Shown here: piece after piece, positions 411 to 64,000 of the stretch
How positions within the stretch are numbered: the stretch's first letter is position 1
Layout of the letters: every line of letters starts with the position of its first letter
NCBI RefSeq assembly: GCF_019097595.1
Contig: NC_080734.1
Location: forward strand, 7,247,392-7,311,391
DNA from: Hemibagrus wyckioides
Lineage: Eukaryota; Chordata; Actinopteri; Siluriformes; Bagridae
Direction of reading: 5' to 3'
DNA: 64,000 bases
Notes under the pieces: model-generated
Seen by the model: the letters and a program-made list of their open reading frames with translations, nothing else
What the model was told of the DNA's origin: nothing
Database searches by the model: none
Program-made: the position numbers and the translations under genes

Positions 411-5972
<5,562 letters not shown>

Positions 5973-17923: not shown

Positions 17924-18424
17924 CATGTACTACAGTGTATTTGTTTCAGTGTAATTTATAATTAATAACACATTTTGTTTCTCAAAACAATAGCTTATTC
18001 CAAGTCTGAATTTGCCAAGTGTGAACAATATGCTGTAATATATCCATAAAAATGAACAAAATTTTTTTTTCTGTATTTGTGCTTGGTGTTTGTGTTTACA
18101 GTGTTGATGGAATAGTTTAGATACAAGATCAAGAAGGATAAATGCAGAGGGAGTTTAGTTGCTTTATAGTGCATGAAGATTGATCCTACCACAATAATGC
18201 TTAACAATAATGGGATTCCTGGTTTCCTCCACCCATGCAAAAACAGGCCAGTAGACAGAATGGTTAAGAGAAATTGCCCCTGATTTAAATAACTTAAAAT
18301 GTAATAACTTTAGCAGTCAATCACTAGTTATAAAATTTACCAATTAATCAATGAAATATAAAATTGTCTAAATGAGACACTTTAGTTTAGTTAACTCAAT
18401 ATAGTTTTAGGTTTAGTTAACTCA

Positions 18425-18447
18425 ATATATATATATATATATATATG
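18425..18447. repeat. (AT)n microsatellite at left end of Tc1 copy
   Basis: About 22 bases of perfect AT; a similar run at 19216-19243 borders the right end. TA is the target of Tc1 elements, so insertion into an AT tract is likely. Confidence 0.8.
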
Positions 18448-19212
18448 TTCCAATCACTTCCATGGCCACAGGTGTATAAAATCAAGCACCTAGGCATGCA
18501 GACTGTTTTTACAAACATTTGTGAAAGAATGGGTCGCTCTCAGGAGCTCAGTGAATTCCAGCGTGGAACTGTGATAGGATGCCACCTGTGCAACAAATCC
18601 AGTCGTGAAATTTCCTCGCTCCTAAATATTCCACAGTCAACTGTCAGCTGTATTATAAGAACGTGGAAGTGTTTGGGAACGACAGCAACTCAGCCACGAA
18701 GTGGTAGGCCACGTAAACTGACGGAGCGGGGTCAGCGGATGCTGAGGCGCATAGTGCGAAGAGGTCGCCAACTTTCTGCAGAGTCAATCGCTACAGACCT
18801 CCAAACTTCATGTGGCCTTCAGATTAGCTCAAGAACAGTGCGCAGAGAGCTTCATGGAATGGGTTTCCATGGCCGAGCAGCTGCATCCAAGCCATACATC
18901 ACCAAGTGCAATGCAAAGTGTCGGATGCAGTGGTGTAAAGCACGCAGCCACTGGACTCTAGAGCAGTGGAGACACGTTCTCTGGAGTGACGAATCACGCT
19001 TCTCCATCTGGCAATCTGATGGACGAGTCTGGGTTTGGCGGTTGCCAGGAGAACACACGCCTAAACCTTGTGGACAGCCTTCCCAGAAGAGTTGAAGCTG
19101 TTATAGCTGCAAAGGGTGGACCGACGTCATATTGAACCCTATGGATTAGGAATGGGATGTCACTTAAGTTCATATGCGAGTCAAGGCAGGTGAGCGAATA
19201 CTTTTTCAATAT
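18447..19212 (+). pseudogene. Tc1-like transposase with deleted C-terminal half
   Basis: An open frame from ATG 18529 to 19095 encodes the paired-type helix-turn-helix DNA-binding half (SEFQRGTVIGCHLCNKSSREI; TVSCIIRTWKCLG; the GRPRKL hook) and the first DDE aspartate (LWSDESRFSIW). After RLPGEH the sequence jumps to the last codons (SLPRRVEAVIAAKGGPTSY in another frame), so the second Asp and third acidic residue are lost. The 3' part carries gcgaatactttttcaatata, a Tc1 end. Its left end abuts an (AT)n run. It shares its family with 55555-56740. Confidence 0.85.
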
Positions 19213-41035: not shown

Positions 41036-44000
41036 TCATCCCATCGTGGAGTTCCCGGGTGGTCCAGGAGGTCCACGTGGGCCAACAGGTCCAGGCTTTC
41101 CTCTAGGCCCAGGGATACCATGTAAACCTGGGAGTCCTGCTTTACCCTGGATTCCTGGTGGTCCTTTTGGCCCTTGCAATCCATCTTTGCCTGGAAATCC
41201 CATGTCGCCCTTCTGCCCCTGTTCACCTCGAGGTCCTGGTTGTCCTAAAGACCCTTTGGCTCCTTTAAAACCTTGGCTTCCTTTCATTCCATAAGGTCCA
41301 GGTTCCCCTTGAGCTCCTTTAGGCCCTATAAAACCCTTTGGACCTGGAGGACCAGGAACACCAGGGCGTCCTTTGTCTCCTTTAACCCCTATTGATCCTG
41401 TAGGACCTAATGGCCCTGCTTCGCCCCTGTTCCCCTTTGGACCTGGTGGACCAGGAGCACCTGCAAAACAAAAAGATTAAATTCCTCTACATTTTATAGA
41501 ATGCACCATCTAACAGTATATACTACAATTAAAAAGTATTGCTACCTTTCAAAATGGTGAAGTTTTGGATTAGCTGAGAATGCCTGGTGTCCACCAACTT
41601 CATCTCCTCCATAACCATAGAGATGTTCCTCATATCCATATCAAGACGTACATTAAGGATCATATATTGTGATCTCAAGGAATCAGCAAGGTTAAGCAGA
41701 AGCAAGACAGTATTGTTTAAATTCTGCAAGTCTTCTGTGTGGCCCCCCAGCTTTAACTGGCAAGATGAGCTCTCCATGTTGATATATTTGTACATGCTCT
41801 GAACATGGCTGACTGTTGCATTAATGCTGGAGGCAATGGTCTCAATCTCCAGTTCAATGGAACCCATTCTTGTATCGAGTGTCATAAACCTTTCCCCAGT
41901 CCTATTTTCATAGTATTTTGCGTGATATTGGTGGTCATGCATGTTCTCCTCATGCTCATCAATGTATGAAGACACGTTTTCCAGCTGTGTCTGCAGGTTC
42001 ACGACCTGTAATGTGAGCTCCTGCACCATATCTGAGCTCATGCTGATTCTCTGATATGTGGCAGAGATGCCACTCTGGATGCTTCGCATAGTTTGGACAT
42101 TAGTGCTGGAATTGGACTTGAGTGCACTTAGTATTCTGCTGTAGTTCTGCCAGTCTTTGGTAATTTTCTGTAACACCAATGCCTCTTCTTCGGCTTTCCT
42201 CTGAAGAGCATCTATCCACAAGGCACTAAGTGAGACAGTGCTGTTGACCTGTTGAACAGTAGCCTTCAAATCATATTGTTCTTGGACCAAGGTCTTCATG
42301 CCCTGATCAGTCTCATTGATAACAGCCTGCCATCCATTTACCTGATTCAGGTACTGCTCAAGAGATTGGTTTATTCGTTTAATAGTAATCCCATAAGCCT
42401 GGACATCTCTCATCATCCTGTTATTGGACTGTGTTAGAGTGTTTTGGGATTGAGTGTTCTGGTCCAATAACTGCTCTTGACCCACAACCATCTTTTGGAG
42501 GTCTTCAAACTCCTTTTTGAGCCTAATGATCTCGTCCCGGAAGTTAACTGTGCTGTAGCATTCTGTACAGTTCATGACATCTGCAAAATATATATTATAT
42601 TTACATTTCTGATGGGTTTGGATGGCTGTACGATAGAACAGTATGACTGTTATACTTAGAAAAAGCAGAAAAAAGATAAATCCTCCAAATTATAAGTATC
42701 TGTTCAGTTTACACCTGAGATTCAAGCCAGTAGTAATGTAACAAGGAGGATTTTTTTTTTTTTTTGAGTCAATGAGTGACCGACTTCAAGGGGGCAAAGA
42801 GTACTAAGAAGCCACGTGATTAGAAAAATACTATCATCAGACCAGAGGGCCAATTTCAAACATGGCTTACAGTTTTCTAGATGAATAACTAATTACCATT
42901 TTTTTAAAAAAGCTATTCTGTCATTTGGTGTTTTGATGATGATGGTGGAGAGTGCTATTAAAAACATTGCTTCTCAAATCTATATTTTTTCATTTGGATT
43001 GAGAACTTTGTAAGTCAGGGGTGTCCAATCCTATCTGGAAAGGCCTGAAGGTTTTCATTCCAACCAAGCAGAAGCCACAGCTGAGTCTATTGAAAGCCAA
43101 GATCAACTGATTAAACAGGTGGAATTAGGTGTAGCTTCTGCTAGGTTGGAATGAAAACCAGCACCCACAAAGGCCCTTTTTGGATAAGATTGGACATCCA
43201 GGGTATAAGTGGACTCAAACACCAAACCATGCCAGCAAAATGAATAAATACCCCCATAGCAGAACAATCATTTTCTTTTCATTTGTCAACTGTCACCAAT
43301 TTCCTTCTTTAGGGATATGACAATATTAATATCTCACCTTGAGTACTCCCCTGGCCCGTGGTCATCCTTTTATGATAAAGTGATTCCTCTTCATATAAGC
43401 TGTCAACCTTCCTAAAAACTGATGACAAATTAATTTCAGGTTTAAGTGATTAATGAAACTGTTCAAAGCCCTGGCACAGAAACAGAAATATTTTCAAGGC
43501 CTAAATCCTCAAATTAAAATGCAGTATTGCAGAGTTCTATTAGACTGTATGCATATGTAACATGTTTTATTTCGACAGGGTGATGAAAAGGCCCTGTTGT
43601 TATAAAACAGGGATTAATAATGATAGATTACATTATAACTCCTCTGGCTCTTGCCATGTTTTGCATACGTCAAAGTTTATTAGTTTTTTTTTTTGCTCTT
43701 TGATAGATTTTATGAAATAATATACTTTATTTGAAGACAATTGAAAGCTTGCTGTTTTACACCCATGTTGGGTAACTGAGAAATATGAAACAGATGTGTC
43801 AGTGTTTCTGCCCTCACACTATCTTGTTTTTTACTTAGCAGTAACAGCAGTTTTGGAATCTGTCTTTTCCAGTTCTTTTGTTTTCAGTTCATTAGGCCAT
43901 GTATTTGCAGGTCAAATTTATGTCTTCCCAGTAAAATATCAGCACCACCACAGAGCCTCAAGTGTGTTTTGGAATTGTTTGCTGTCCTTTTGTTATTATC

Positions 44001-47000: not shown

Positions 47001-50000
47001 CTTCAATTGGGAAAGATTAAATCTAGACAATGCTGCAGCCATCCAGAAGATCTGTGTGGAAGGAATTACTTTGGCAGTAGCCAGTCAGGAGTCTTAGTGA
47101 GCTCATGAATGACCCTAAATGCCCTTTAACCTGACTGATTATGTAACAGTACCCTGGAGTCTCATTCAGGGTGTACTTCTACCTCATTTCCAGAAATCCA
47201 AGGAAAATTGAAAAATGGTGGCCAGTATCCAGCTAATAAAATGACATAAATGTCTTTAATAGTTCAGTATCAACTGAATGGTGCAAAGCAAGTCTAGATA
47301 TTAACAAAACAGTTACAGCATGTAAGATCAATACAGGCTTAAATATGCACAATGTTAAATGTTTTCTCAAAGTCTTTAATCTTCATGGAGATACCAAAAT
47401 GTCCTTCAGACATGTTCCATATAACATTTTCCAGCAGAAAACCGCTAGCATTATGGAGAGCTTGTTAACTGGATCTGTAAAAAAAAAAAAAAGAAAGAAA
47501 ATAAACAGCCCCAGGACAAAATAATGAGCTCCACCTATAACTTTCGGTTGAAATGTAATAGTTGGCCTACAAGTGTGGGTATGCAGTATATCAAAATCTT
47601 TGACACTCAGCATTTTTCTTCTCAGATGTAGGTGGAGGGAAGGATTAAAGGTGATTGGTCTGCTTGGACAAGATGTTTTATAGCATTCTGCCCACTTCCT
47701 GTAAAAACAAGGGGATTAGATGTGGTGGTGATGTTACACACGTGCCCTTTAGCTCAACTCAGAACTGTGCCGAGTGAGTAACTACATCCATATGAATCAT
47801 GGCATGCTGTATAGTCATTAAATATAATCTCTGAATCTGTTCTGTAGAGTAAATCTGTAGATGGCTGATTTGTATTGAAGTCCAGACTGTGATGATGAAA
47901 GAGGCTTTTTTTTGGCAACTGTGAATCAGTGCACATTCTCTGCCAATCAGAAGCCGAGTAGCTTTCAACTAGTTTCTGACAAAAGGAATAATAAACAATT
48001 TCCTTTTATTTATTTTATTTCTGGATTGCTAAGTGGTTAACAATCCTAACCACTGCCATCTAACACATCTAACAAGTTCTCACACTCCAATCCCGAGCTC
48101 TTCATCAGTGGTTTGTGTTCCTGAACTATGTCCCAAATCGCAGCTTTTGTATGCTCGTCTTTCAATAAATAAAATTGTGTGTTTGTATGCTGTTTGGATA
48201 GAAAGTTAATATTTGAGTGCAGTGCAGTCACATGCTGTTATTATGAAGGCTGTGTAACACTGCCCAGGAATATAAAACCAGTCAGGATCCCGGATACACA
48301 AAGCATGTGGTGTGACAGACGTTTCTTGTGGTCTATTTCGCATGCAACAAATCAGGATGAAGTGTTCCAGAGATGTGCAAAGTATTAATACTAACTTAAT
48401 CTTTAATTTTTTTTTTAAATTTTAATATCTAAAAAAAAAATCCAAAATAATTATGCATTCATTTATATGTGCTAGATGTGTTTACCCAAATTCCAAAGAT
48501 GCACAATGAAGCCCTTTTGCAAACGCACAAGTCTCACTTTATCCGTGTCAACAAACCATCTTTTCCAGATGTACTTTATAAGCAGCATGTGGGCATGTTC
48601 TGAAGCAATGAAATGCAAGGAATGTGTATATGCATTTTCATTAAATACTGAGAAATGAACTAATGTATGCATGTGTTGTGGCCTGGGGTTGAAACTGTTA
48701 AACTAAAACACATGCCTCAAAGATGCATATTAATGAAGAAAGCTATAGCATTATCTCAACACATACTATAGAACCTTCAGACTTGTTATGAGATACATTC
48801 TTGGGAAATCGATTCCTTTAATGGACTGACAGACAAAGACCACACCTCCTTTATTGGACTGAAAGGAAAAGAGACCACACCTCCTTCATTGGACTGACCA
48901 GAACAGAGACCACATTTCGTTTATTAGACTGACAGACCTAAAGGCCACACCTCCTTCATTGGAATAACAGACATAAAGACCACACTTCCTTTATTAGACT
49001 GATAGGAAGAGACCACACCTCCTTCATTGGACTGACAGGCATAAAGACCCCACCTCCTTCATTGGACTGACAGGCATAAAGACCCCACCTCCTTCATTGG
49101 ACTGACAGGCACAGAGACCATGGATCTTTGAATTGACTGAAAAAAAAAAGTCTCTTGTATTGGACTCACAGGCTTGGAGGCCACATCTCTATGATTAAGA
49201 CTGACGGACATAAAGCATTTAGTGGAACTGATGGAGATAGAGGTACAACTTACAAGCACAAAATCTACAGGGCAACTGCAGGACACAGAAACCATGTCTC
49301 TTCAATGGATTGATAAGCACAGAGGCCACACCTCCATAATCTTGACTGACCAGCAAAAAGCATTTACTGGGACTGTCAGGCACAAAGGCCACACATCATT
49401 CACAATGACTAACAGGCATATAACATTTGCTGGGACTAATGAGCACAGATGCCACTCCCCATTTACTGGAACTTACAGGCACAGAGTCTAAGGCTCATTT
49501 ATTGGGCTGGCATGTACAGAGACCATGTTGCCATCATCAGGACTGACAAACAAAAAGTATTTCCAGGGACTAACAGGTAAACAGGCCTCATTGACCTGTG
49601 GCAACGATCACAGCCTATTTACTGCAACTTAGAGGCACAGATGCCATGCCACATTCATCAGGACTGTCAGGCAGAGAGAAGCAAGAAGAAAACTCATTAA
49701 CACCAGTGATAAATTTAGCTGGCCATCAGATTTAAACAGCTTTTAACAATACGGGCAAACCCAGTTTTATTCATTCACCACCTCCAAACAAATTTTACAC
49801 GCTGTTCTTAAACAGTGCAGCTGTATTGCAAATAAGTATATCTTTACACCACTTGTCAATACACATGACTTGGTATTTCTGTAGTCATGCCCAGACTGGA
49901 TCATGTGATGTGGATCTCCGGTCACACACCTGCTGCCGGTCTCTTGATCGCCGAAAATGCACCGTTCCTGCAGCTCTCTGGGATATGAGCTCAAATAAAG

Positions 50001-54517: not shown

Positions 54518-54624
<107 letters not shown>

Positions 54625-55554: not shown

Positions 55555-56740
55555 TGCCAATCACTTCCATGGCCACAGGTGTATAAAATCAAGCACCTAG
55601 GCATGTAGACTGTTTTTACAAACATTTGTGAAAGAATGGGTCACTCTCAGGAGTTCAGTGAATTCCAGCGTGGAACTGTGATAGGATGCCACCTGTGCAA
55701 CAAATCCAGTCGTGAAATTTCCTCGCTCCTAAATATTCCACAGTCAACTGTCAGCTGTATTATAAGAACGTGGAAGTGTTTGGGAACGACAGCAACTCAG
55801 CCACGAAGTGGTAGGCCATGTAAACTGACGGAGCGGGGTCAGCGGATGCTGAGGCGCATAGTGCGAAGAGGTCGCCAACTTTCTGCAGAGTCAATCGCTA
55901 CAGACCTCCAAACTTCATGTGGCCTTCAGATGAGCTCAAGAACAGTGCGCAGAGAGCTTCATGGAATGGGTTTCCATGGCCGAGCAGCTGCATCCAAGCC
56001 ATACATCACCAAGTGCAATGCAAAGCGTCGGATGCAGTGGCAATCTGATGGACGAGTCTGGGTTTGGCGGTTGCCAGGAGAACGGTACTTGTCTGACTGC
56101 ATTGTGCCAAGTGTAAAGTTTGGTGGAGGGGGATTATGGTGCGGGGTTGTTTTTCAGGAGCTGGGCTTGGCTCCTTAGTTCCAGTGAAAGGAACTCTGAA
56201 TGCTTCAGCATACCAAGACATTTTGGACAATTCCATGCTCCCAACTTTGTGGACACAGTTTGGAGCTGGCCCCTTCCTCTTCCAACATGACTGTGCACCA
56301 GTGCACAAAGCAAGGTCCATAAAGACATGGATGACAGAGTCTGGTGTGGATGAACTTGACTGGCCTGCACAGAGTCCTGACCTCAACCCGATAGAACACC
56401 TTTGGGATGAATTAGAGCGGAGACTGAGAGCCAGGCCTTCTCGTCCAACATCAGTGTGTGACCTCACAAATGCGCTTCTGGAAGAATGGTCAAAAATTCC
56501 CATAAACACACTCCTAAACCTTGTAGACAGCCTTCCCAGAAGAGTTGAAGCTGTTATAGCTGCAAAGGGTGGACCGACGTCATATTGAACCCTATGGATT
56601 AGGGTTCAAAGGACATTAGTGTGTATTTCGGCCGCCTTCAGCATTGTTTTACAATGTAGAAAGAAATAAACATCAGGAAAGACCATGGAATTAGAAGGTG
56701 TGTCCAAACTTTTGACTGGTAGTGTATGTATACAAAAAAA
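55555..56740 (+). pseudogene. Tc1-like transposase with internal deletion and frameshift
   Basis: ATG at 55636 opens the same DNA-binding half as in the copy at 18447 (EFQRGTVIGCHL, GRPCKL). Then RMQW jumps to QSDGRVWVWRLPGE, deleting the segment with the first catalytic Asp that the other copy keeps. The frame changes around 56140-56165, and the rest continues in the overlapping frame 56136-56588: LWTQFGAGPFLFQHDCAPVH with the second Asp, SPDLNPIEHLWDELERR with the final acidic residue, and SLPRRVEAVIAAKGGPTSY. The right end is acttttgactggtagtgta near 56725. Confidence 0.85.
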
Positions 56741-60889: not shown

Positions 60890-63800
60890 ATGATGGCAAC
60901 AAAGGTGATGAGAAAACGTGTTGGAGTTTTGGTGCCTCATCCTGTAGAAGAGGAAGATGAAAGTTGTTCATGCAGTGAAGGTAAAACACACTGAACATCC
61001 TGAGCTCCACAACCTCACTGTCCTTTTAGCTCCTTCCAGTCATGATCACAACATTTCTTCCTCTTCTTCTCCCTCTCTTTAACTCCAGGGAATGCCAAGG
61101 TCCTGCAGCATGAAGAGAAATATGTGTCTGATGGAGAGATGTTAACATTTCCTGGTCCTCTGATGAGGTGAGACGCTCTTTCTCCTCTCACACACTCAGG
61201 GTTTCAGCAGTAATGTTCTGAAGCAGATCATCAGGAGGTTACAGTGTGTGTGTGTGTGTGTTATAGGGCTAATCTGCAGAAGGACAAGCTGATGAAGTTT
61301 ATCCAGCAGAAATATCAGGAGTGTTTGCTTCACCTGGATGATCCTGAGCAACAGTATTCCTATTTCTTTTGGACCATTATGGAACGTTTTCTTAAGAAAA
61401 ATGGAGTAAGTGCTGGACTTCATTCTGTGAGAGTTCCTCTAAAATCAGATACTTAAGAAATGTTGATGCTGGGAGCAAAGTGTCCCGCTTTGAACAAAAA
61501 CAATTAAAGAATTCAAAAAAAGAATATTTTTGATAAAAATGATAAGTGGCTGAGTGAATAAACCGGTGTTCAGTGAGACGTGAAGTTAAAGAGATGTTTC
61601 TTTTCCAGAGAGTAATGATGGCTGAAATCACCGCACTGCTCTTCAAGGGCTACGGCCTTCTGAGCCAAAAGGTGAGTGTATCAGTGTCACTGCCTTCTGT
61701 CTGTACTGTGTATTGCATTGGTCAGAATCACGTGGACTAACATGAACCTTTCTGGTCCAGGTGCGACGTGTGGAGCACAATGGGACCTGGTGTCTTCATC
61801 TGGCACGGCTTTTATGCTCCACTGCACCAGGAGATCAGCGAAGAGAAGCCATAATAAAAATGGGAGACAAGTACGGTAAGGATACGCTGCACAGGAACAG
61901 TTAACGTGATTAACATGAATGCTGGTCTTGCCGGTCACTTTATTAGGAACACATAACATAAGAATGGAGGAAGATGTCAGTGAGCTCAGTGACTGTAACC
62001 ATGTCGATGGTTGCAGTGTTTCTGAAACATCATTGGCTGATTGGAGGACTGCATGAATGTGCAGGTGTTCCTAATAAAGTGTACGGTGAGTGTTTATTCT
62101 GAACTCTGGGCTGGTTTATGGAAGTCGATACTCATGTGCATGTTTGGTTTCTCATTGTCAGAAAACAGAGGATGGACCTATGCAGCACACATCTGCTATG
62201 TGGTGGCGCAAGTGGACCTGGGATCACGGCCCAGATTTTCACTGATTGGATGCAGCAGGTATTTGGTGTTGGTGTGTGTTTGTGTGTGTGGGTGTGTGTG
62301 TTTCATTATTTGACATGTATTTCTTTTTGCACCAGTTTGCCAGAAAAGAAATCAGCCATGAGAGAGGCGATGGAGAGAACTGAGGTCTACGAATACCTGC
62401 TGTCTCTTACCTCAGGGTTCAGCCAGGAGCACTTCCAGGTCAGAATTTTTCTTCTACTCTTTTTCACAACAAATTGAAGCAGGTACCATCGTATTGACAA
62501 GGAACATTTCTGTATGTTTCTTAGGAACTCAAGTGCATTCACGCCAGCAAGCTAGCTGAGGTTGGACTTGATGCTGTGGCGCTGGACTACTACGAGATCA
62601 TCACTACAACGATCCTCAGTTTCCCTGATCGCATCCAGAGCACTGTGGTGGAATTGCTTATATCGGTAAATGAGATGATCTGTGTTTGTGAAATGGCTCT
62701 TGGGCCTGAAATGTAAAGTCTTCATCACTATTTTCCTTTCCTTGTTAGCTCTCTGAGAAGCTGCTTCAAAGGATGGAAGCAGAAGAACCCAAGTGGCTGA
62801 TGAAACTTCGCCAGCTGCTGCCAGATAATACAGACCATTGTAGCCCTTCTGATAAACAGAATGGGTCCGGCTCTAAATCTGAGAGAAATCTGGTGTTCGA
62901 CTCTTCAGTTCACAGTACGTTACAATCCTCACAGACTATTGTTAACATTTCTAAATCACTTAGCAAGGTGTCTACACTGCCGAGTAGCTAGTGAAGGATT
63001 CGTATCATTTTCTATTCAGACTCTTATACTTACTCCAGATGCTCATATTCAGAGCAACATAGAGACAGGATGCAATACTAATTGAATTACTGTGTGTGTG
63101 TGTGTAACAGGTGAGTTTGATTCACGGTACACCGTTGGAGAGCTGCTAGGGGAAGGAAGCTACGGCTCAGTCTACGCTGGAGTCCGTAAGGCAGATAAAC
63201 TTCCGGTAATTAAGCTGTTATTACTGTAAAAAACCCAAACACCAAATACTAGTATACAGGATTTAAATACTAACTGGTTAGAGGGGGACTTTGTAGCTTA
63301 ACACATACCAGGGATGTAGGATTCACATGTAAATGTGTGTAAATGGACTAATTAACTTCTTTATTATAATGAAGGCTTGTAGAACTGATTCATTCTTTTG
63401 TGTCCATGTGAACAGGTCGCCATCAAAGTGTTGGCCAGAAATCCCGATGATAAACTATTCACCATCGTAAGTAAACTTCCTTCTGAGATTCTGCAGAAAA
63501 GCAATAAGGTGTAAATGACAATCAGTTTATAGAGCAGATCTACAAGAAAGTGATGTGTCTATCAGCTGGTTCCTGCTAACAGCATCACAAAAAAACTCAG
63601 CTCTTAATCACGTCTCAGATTCCGATTTTATTACCTTTCATTCATAATAGATATCTGAAGACTGCTAGAGTCTAGTCAGTGCAACTCCAATCCTTCACTC
63701 TACTATCTCTGCTTACTACACTTCAGACATGTTCCTCTTTCCGTGCTAACTCCTGTGTGTGTGTGATTTTAGCCTGGAGAGACACTCAAGCTCCCTCAAG

Positions 63801-64000
63801 AGGTGGCTTTAATAAAGATGGCATCTGAGGCTCCTCGCTGTGAGAGCGTGGTGGAGCTGCTGGAGTGGTTCAAGACGTCCCATAACTACATCTTAGTGCT
63901 GGAGCGACCCGTCCCCTGCATGGACCTCTGTCATTATATTGAGCATTACAAACGACTGCCTGAACCAGTGGCTCGGAAGGTCATGTGGCAGTTGGTTCAG
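60890..64000 (+). CDS. Sec16-like ACE1 domain fused to a PIM-type serine/threonine kinase (3' truncated by window edge)
   Basis: Twelve coding exons in continuous phase: 60890-60980, 61089-61167, 61267-61405, 61609-61671, 61761-61875, 62162-62258, 62336-62438, 62525-62665, 62749-62914, 63111-63205, 63416-63466, 63773-64000+; 456 codons so far. Residues about 45-315 align end to end with the Sec16 ACE1 region, which binds Sec13 at COPII ER exit sites: FPGPLMRANLQKDKLMKFIQQK, LLFKGYGLL, WCLHLARLL, then GWTYAAHICYVVAQ, FSLIGCSS, REAMERTEVYEY, SKLAEVGLDAVALDYYEII, PKWLMKLRQLL. About 100 residues of the middle helices are missing. After a polar linker (SDKQNGSGSKSERN) the kinase begins at about 332: P-loop GEGSYGSV, VAIK catalytic Lys, LPQEVALIK (helix C Glu), and the PIM-specific LERPVPCMDL hinge. 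The kinase exon has no ATG of its own. Loop residues HRD/DFG lie beyond the edge. Confidence 0.85.
61936..62081. mobile_element. MITE with perfect 17-bp terminal inverted repeats, intron 5 of the Sec16-PIM gene
   Basis: CACTTTATTAGGAACAC at 61936-61952 and its exact reverse complement at 62065-62081 bound a 146-bp noncoding element. The termini are of a Tc1-like type. Perfect ends suggest a fairly recent insertion. Confidence 0.75.

Follow-up and report, generated by a model that had tools for sequence, protein, structure and literature searches.

Can a helical domain of the Sec16 type and a protein kinase of the PIM type be two parts of a single protein? This question is raised by the last 3.1 kb of a stretch of DNA from the catfish Hemibagrus wyckioides (contig NC_080734.1, positions 7,247,392 to 7,311,391 of the forward strand); we call "the window" the whole of this stretch, which is 64,000 nucleotides long. 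An earlier note, made from the letters alone, had proposed that a gene located there fuses in frame the Sec13-binding ACE1 region of Sec16, over nine exons, to a PIM-type kinase, over three, and had treated it as a single curiosity. We find that the two parts are indeed joined, and that this occurs in a whole multigene family of catfishes rather than in one gene. The existence of a Sec16-PIM fusion family is in our opinion close to certain, and the gene of the window is probably a member of a family of chimeric kinases proper to siluroid catfishes.

A single open frame through twelve exons

The spliced gene (60890-64000, + strand) has 12 exons and a single open frame of 456 amino acids (aa). 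A chance chain of exons is ruled out by the absence of any stop in this frame, where the two alternative frames of the same splice contain 23 and 31, and by the homologues described below. All 11 introns are bounded by GT-AG. The phase is unbroken throughout, as the earlier note had it; we checked each splice site again on the DNA. A pseudogene is not favoured, the frame being open and the sites intact.

The fusion junction is intron 9 (62915-63110), which has 196 bp and phase 1. Exon 9 (62749-62914), which encodes the final trunk helices and the flexible linker, is free of stops as had been claimed; its donor (ACA followed by GTACGT) was called good, and is in fact acceptable and usable, not strong. 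Neither AATAAA nor ATTAAA is found within 62701-63120, and the intron contains no canonical poly(A) signal. On the other side of the junction, exon 10 (63111-63205), which carries the kinase P-loop GEGSYGSV, lacks the start codon that a separate protein would need there, again in agreement with the earlier note, and so does exon 11 (63416-63466), which carries VAIK: the first methionine on the kinase side is residue 396, in exon 12. Extended upstream, the frame of exon 10 meets a stop about 10 codons ahead of the exon. This rules out, at this locus, a kinase-only protein starting in intron 9; a distant first exon is possible. Exon 12 (63773-64000) carries the ERPVP hinge and is cut by the end of the window. 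The missing right end, where HRD and DFG motifs were expected, is supplied by P0005, a database protein of this locus which is identical to the window translation at 254 of 254 overlapping residues: the exon runs on through HRDIKLDN and DFGC, and the gene product has at least 595 aa.

A further protein, P0026, is one frame of 611 aa with both domains, on a contig of 2,397 bp. Because the gene of the window spreads its 456 codons over 3.1 kb and eleven introns, we infer that this contig is a spliced transcript; a retrocopy would be the alternative. Several models of the family carry isoform numbers in public annotation, which suggests support from RNA.

A family spread over the siluroid catfishes

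The homologues number at least 80 (weakest E-value among those listed 1.1e-9, for a limit of 1e-3), obtained by scoring the 7995 candidates sharing most words; 62 of the 80 listed match TPR_Sec16 of Pfam and 78 match Pkinase. We called a protein fused when BLAST covered at least 100 residues of the Sec16 half and at least 60 residues of the kinase half of the window protein. By this definition, at least 60 proteins (60 of the 80 matches listed) hold both parts. The order is Sec16 and then kinase in 58 of these 60, the reverse being seen in P0029 and P0044, which look like neighbours merged by annotation.

Among the matches listed, 14 named catfish species account for 59 of the 60 fused proteins: Hemibagrus guttatus (13), H. 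wyckioides (9), Ictalurus furcatus (8), Tachysurus fulvidraco and Clarias gariepinus (5 each), Silurus meridionalis and I. punctatus (4 each), T. vachellii (3), Ameiurus melas and Pangasianodon hypophthalmus (2 each), and Neoarius graeffei, Pangasius djambal, Bagarius yarrelli and Silurus asotus (1 each). According to a taxonomy look-up, Hemibagrus, Neoarius, Bagarius, Clarias, Silurus, Pangasianodon and Ictalurus stand for seven families, all of them Siluroidei. None of the 11 proteins of other fishes in the same list (3 from knifefish, 2 from gar, 3 from shads or sardine, 3 from percomorphs) has a Sec16 part. The named relatives of the window gene in H. wyckioides itself include P0003, P0046 and P0075, and the proteins of this species among the matches listed lie on contigs of nine different lengths, a number which may mix assemblies.

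The members bear misleading database names (MARK-A, aurora kinase-like, FGFR-like, pim-1-like, Sec16B-like), and for this reason studies of the catfish kinome or of catfish gene families may split the family or miss it. Their N-termini before the FPGPL motif differ widely in length; that of P0013 (H. wyckioides) has about 130 extra residues, opening with a hydrophobic stretch which resembles a membrane segment. Five models (P0021, P0029, P0044, P0008 and P0055) apparently join two copies of the family head to tail; besides being dispersed, the genes may therefore also lie in tandem arrays.

A shared history of the two halves

The two halves have been inherited together. Over the 45 members in which both domains are well covered, the pairwise distances of the trunk, as we call the Sec16-type part, and those of the kinase are correlated with r = 0.79; none of 5000 permutations reached this value, the permuted maximum being 0.19. 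The mean pairwise identity over these 45 rows is 0.497 for the trunk and 0.533 for the kinase. The trunk is conserved nearly like the kinase, which speaks for a function of the trunk. The trees of the two parts recover the same main subfamilies, and in the Sec16 tree the clade to which the window gene belongs, with 15 rows and full support, spans Bagridae, Ictaluridae, Siluridae and Clariidae. Hence the fusion predates the main subfamilies. In the window's subfamily, the linker across the splice junction is alike between families (53 of the 60 fused rows were viewed). The fusion is probably old, given the crown age of about 97 million years stated for Siluroidei in a passage of PMC5132296, and a single event is likely.

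A Sec16-type trunk without crown

The window protein matches TPR_Sec16 with 80.1 bits (cut-off 22), and the closest solved structure to its Sec16 half is yeast Sec16 (3mzk, 3.1e-8). The helices of the ACE1 trunk are present. Seven trunk residues are invariant over 50 rows (C173, G191, E210, Y212, E213, Q228 and K231 in the numbering of P0014), and among the 26 blocks of 10 residues between residues 51 and 310, the mean predicted local distance difference test (pLDDT) is above 90 in 15 blocks of the P0003 model and in 18 of the P0014 model. The linker that follows is flexible, with pLDDT below 50 at residues 312-323 of P0003.

The claim that all nine exons correspond to ACE1 stands for the trunk and fails for the rest. 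Aligned with yeast Sec16 by way of the paralogue P0003, exons 2-9 match in two separate stretches only, and a large part is lacking from the middle. Exon 1 (60890-60980), with the start ATG and an acidic, serine-rich N-terminus, and most of exon 2 (61089-61167) have no likeness to any ordered part of ACE1; we recognised no blade strands in exon 1, whose equivalent in P0003 is strandless and disordered in the model (pLDDT below 50). Exon 2 also holds the FPGPL motif (residues 51-55), which belongs to the C-terminal half of the Sec16 mid-region; PF12932 scores 20.4 bits, under the cut-off of 23. Placed via P0003, trunk helices 1-2 fall in exon 3 (61267-61405) and helix 3 in exon 4 (61609-61671). 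The return leg begins in exon 5 (61761-61875), which the crown would precede, and the trunk goes on through exon 6 (62162-62258, AAHICYVVA block), exon 7 (62336-62438, RTEVYEY block) and exon 8 (62525-62665).

It is the crown of ACE1 which is missing: residues 133-280 of the 3mzk chain are faced by 31 residues in P0003. Likewise, the spacing from FPGPL to the AHICY-type block is 92-132 in the 27 of 60 fused models that allow it to be measured, against about 230 in yeast according to the alignment with P0003. Of 13 proteins that match PF12931, 12 do so no earlier than profile position 90; in the remaining one, P0041, the match begins at position 28, but over residues which PF12932 also claims. 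The helix count agrees with a trunk made of helices a1-3 and a11-18 in the scheme set out in part of PMC7695694.

The description of this region as Sec13-binding is not supported. In the AlphaFold3 prediction reported in excerpts of PMC13226660, a triple strand at the N-terminal end of the central domain of SEC16B occupies the seventh blade position left vacant in SEC13 and "dominantly bridges" the two proteins, and the helical solenoid also stacks on the SEC13 propeller. In the P0003 and P0014 models, no such propeller-completing strands are seen before FPGPL, a stretch mostly below pLDDT 50, and the match to PF12932 begins no earlier than profile position 22-56 in all 9 proteins examined (3 of the 9 above the cut-off). 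With the crown missing and no blade seen, canonical binding of Sec13 is not predicted. The blade strands might still form upon binding, and a weaker contact with Sec13 through the trunk alone is conceivable. The C-terminal Sec23-binding region was not found either: the full-length proteins P0003 and P0001 end soon after the kinase, with no further Sec16 match in Pfam. The family may be described as containing a Sec16-type trunk, and is not to be filed as Sec16.

A PIM-type kinase

The three last exons encode a PIM-type kinase, as had been proposed. Pkinase is matched with 48.1 bits (cut-off 31.7), PIM-1 is the closest solved structure by sequence (1.3e-22), and the hinge, ERPVP, is of the proline-containing ERPxP type of the PIM family. 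In the comparison of folds PIM-1 was also the best match of P0003. The fold search with the full-length model listed only kinases, so P0014 was modelled as well; a search of the PDB from the family alignment with a full-length first row was similarly dominated by kinases. NCBIfam gave only names of bacterial and archaeal kinases and kinase-bearing proteins.

The lysine, the glutamate, the aspartate of HxD, the asparagine and the aspartate of DFG are all present in 52 of the 60 fused models, and in the window gene when its end is taken from P0005. Of the eight remaining models, five are gapped at one or more of these positions; leucine replaces the lysine in P0018, and asparagine the aspartate of DFG in P0021 and P0029. 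Some fused kinases, mostly in one subfamily, have a catalytic loop of HGD or HSD type in which histidine, glutamine or arginine replaces the usual lysine (P0010, P0016, P0020, P0032, P0037, P0039, P0052 and others); their activity may be changed.

Proposed origin and function

PIM kinases are active without phosphorylation of the activation loop, and are controlled by their expression and placement. By analogy, the chimeric kinase would be active once made and be controlled in the same way. Before the divergence of the siluroid families sampled here, a truncated copy of a Sec16-type gene would have landed upstream of PIM kinase exons and been joined to them by splicing across a phase-1 intron. 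The chimera would then have multiplied by duplication of DNA. Held on a flexible linker, the trunk would be a module for docking proteins or for positioning, which sets where or on what the kinase works, either through a residual, blade-independent contact with partners of COPII or Sec16 or through a new partner. We consider it reasonably probable that the trunk works as a docking or regulatory module, and doubtful that its partner is still a component of COPII. The boldest proposal, namely that a Sec16 trunk without crown and blade sets the substrate or the location of the kinase, has been kept through the siluroid radiation and perhaps mimics the secretory machinery as an integrated decoy in the immunity of the cell itself, is an unlikely one taken as a whole.

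Several observations weigh against the main account. Foldseek's own score for the match to Sec16 is weak (E-value 4.3e-3, template modelling score 0.33, root-mean-square deviation 14.3). On the kinase tree the label "fused" requires 6 changes, at least 5 of them by well-supported branches, and a single change is found in 0% of bootstrap trees. The rows without this label inside fused groups include P0063, P0064, P0069 and P0075, with 0, 97, 72 and 0 Sec16 residues respectively: the first three may be truncated models or true losses, and P0075 has the kinase of P0003 and a contig equal to it in length, so that truncation of the model is the likelier reading there. The linker varies in both length and sequence once one leaves the subfamily of the window gene. 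Finally, the annotated models of the family are predictions, which may borrow from each other.

Other explanations are given here in descending order of probability, the first being itself improbable. The Sec16 part could be a passive remnant which gives a promoter and an N-terminus to a kinase that alone matters. This would account for the lost crown, the unseen blade, the variable length before FPGPL and the existence of some listed catfish kinases without a Sec16 part (P0063 and P0075), and it is at odds with the near equality of trunk and kinase identities, with the seven invariant residues and with the many trunk blocks of high mean pLDDT. There is also little chance that the kinase is held by Sec13 at exit sites of the endoplasmic reticulum through an ACE1 domain, as the earlier note would have it. 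According to passages of PMC7619307, Sec16A organises these sites, and its domain forms homodimers in which every monomer carries Sec13; the trunk is indeed of Sec16 type, and the stacking of solenoid on propeller predicted for SEC16B makes a weaker contact by the trunk alone conceivable (excerpts of PMC13226660). However, the bridging is assigned mainly to the triple strand in the same AlphaFold3 prediction, and the stretch before FPGPL is strandless and mostly of low pLDDT in two models, none of the 9 proteins examined matches the beginning of PF12932, and there is no crown.

Lower still we place an immune-type family: pathogen factors that hit the secretory pathway would be sensed by the trunk, or lured by it as an integrated decoy, and the kinase would be the output. 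The family is large, seems confined to one lineage, varies at its N-termini, has an altered catalytic loop in at least one subfamily and has copies on many contigs, which gives it the look of an arms race, but large families also grow by drift. Lastly, a Sec16 remnant and a neighbouring PIM kinase wrongly merged by gene prediction, of which the models in the order kinase-Sec16 (P0029, P0044) or Sec16-kinase-Sec16 (P0021) seem to give examples, is a very improbable explanation of the family, and we reject it as the principal one in view of the co-inheritance of trunk and kinase over 45 rows, the common linker in the window's subfamily, the single-contig frame of P0026, the lack of methionine in exons 10-11 and of a poly(A) signal between the halves, and names given by several annotation projects, whose independence we assume.

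The rest of the window

Remnants of Tc1/Sleeping-Beauty-like transposases were found as reading frames at 18421-19095 and 55609-56588 (Pfam matches over 18421-19095 and 56097-56588), the second lying about 4.3 kb ahead of the fusion gene. A minisatellite occupies 48814-49120 (8.9 copies of a unit of about 35 bp), and a perfect microsatellite, (ATAG)26.8, lies at 54518-54624. Two long open frames, 4735-5691 and 41529-42689, both on the minus strand, have no match in Pfam; they may resemble ESCO2 and a SCARA-type coiled-coil protein, which are neighbours in human 8p21. Rfam has no match in the window at gathering scores.

Comparison with known systems

The earlier note knew of no described Sec16-PIM protein, and we found no account of a Sec16-kinase fusion in our searches of the open-licence literature in PMC. 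No passage dealing with PIM kinases or with Sec16 was found in the main texts of six papers on catfish genomes and transcriptomes (PMC9702082, PMC10901758, PMC9270728, PMC4895719, PMC7859520 and PMC10071708). In 2009, a table of catfish bacterial artificial chromosome ends, in the accessible part of PMC2796685, placed sequences "similar to serine/threonine-protein kinase pim-3" among repetitive elements or a multigene family. This shows that an excess of PIM-like sequences in catfish had already been noticed, without the fusion as far as that part goes. Apparently, the family is undescribed, and consists of known domains in a new and expanded combination.

According to passages of PMC4773986 (2016), ACE1 had never been observed outside the coats of the nuclear pore and of COPII, with a link at the level of sequence to other coat-like complexes; those of PMC7695694 add Sea4 of the SEA complex. 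No kinase figures among the ACE1 proteins named in these passages. Dozens of vertebrate proteins, some in farmed fishes, with an ACE1 trunk before an active-looking kinase would show a coat fold reduced to a docking module, and make it possible to test for a novel way of targeting or controlling a kinase.

PIM kinases consist of little beyond the kinase domain. Compared with PIM-1 and PIM-2, the catfish protein has about 330 residues ahead of the kinase, made of the N-terminus, the Sec16-like trunk and the linker. Compared with Sec16 (SEC16A, SEC16B and yeast 3mzk), it lacks the crown, the Sec13-binding strands are not seen, Pfam finds none of the remaining Sec16 regions, and the protein ends in a kinase. 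A parallel comes from a related order of fishes: in P0068, a protein of the knifefish Brachyhypopomus gauderio (LOC143519267, isoform X1), a helical-repeat domain also precedes a PIM-type kinase, but this domain is of the CLASP_N/HEAT (TOG-like) kind in place of Sec16, and there is one model only. This hints that helical solenoids have been acquired repeatedly, and at the same position, by PIM kinases of otophysan fishes.
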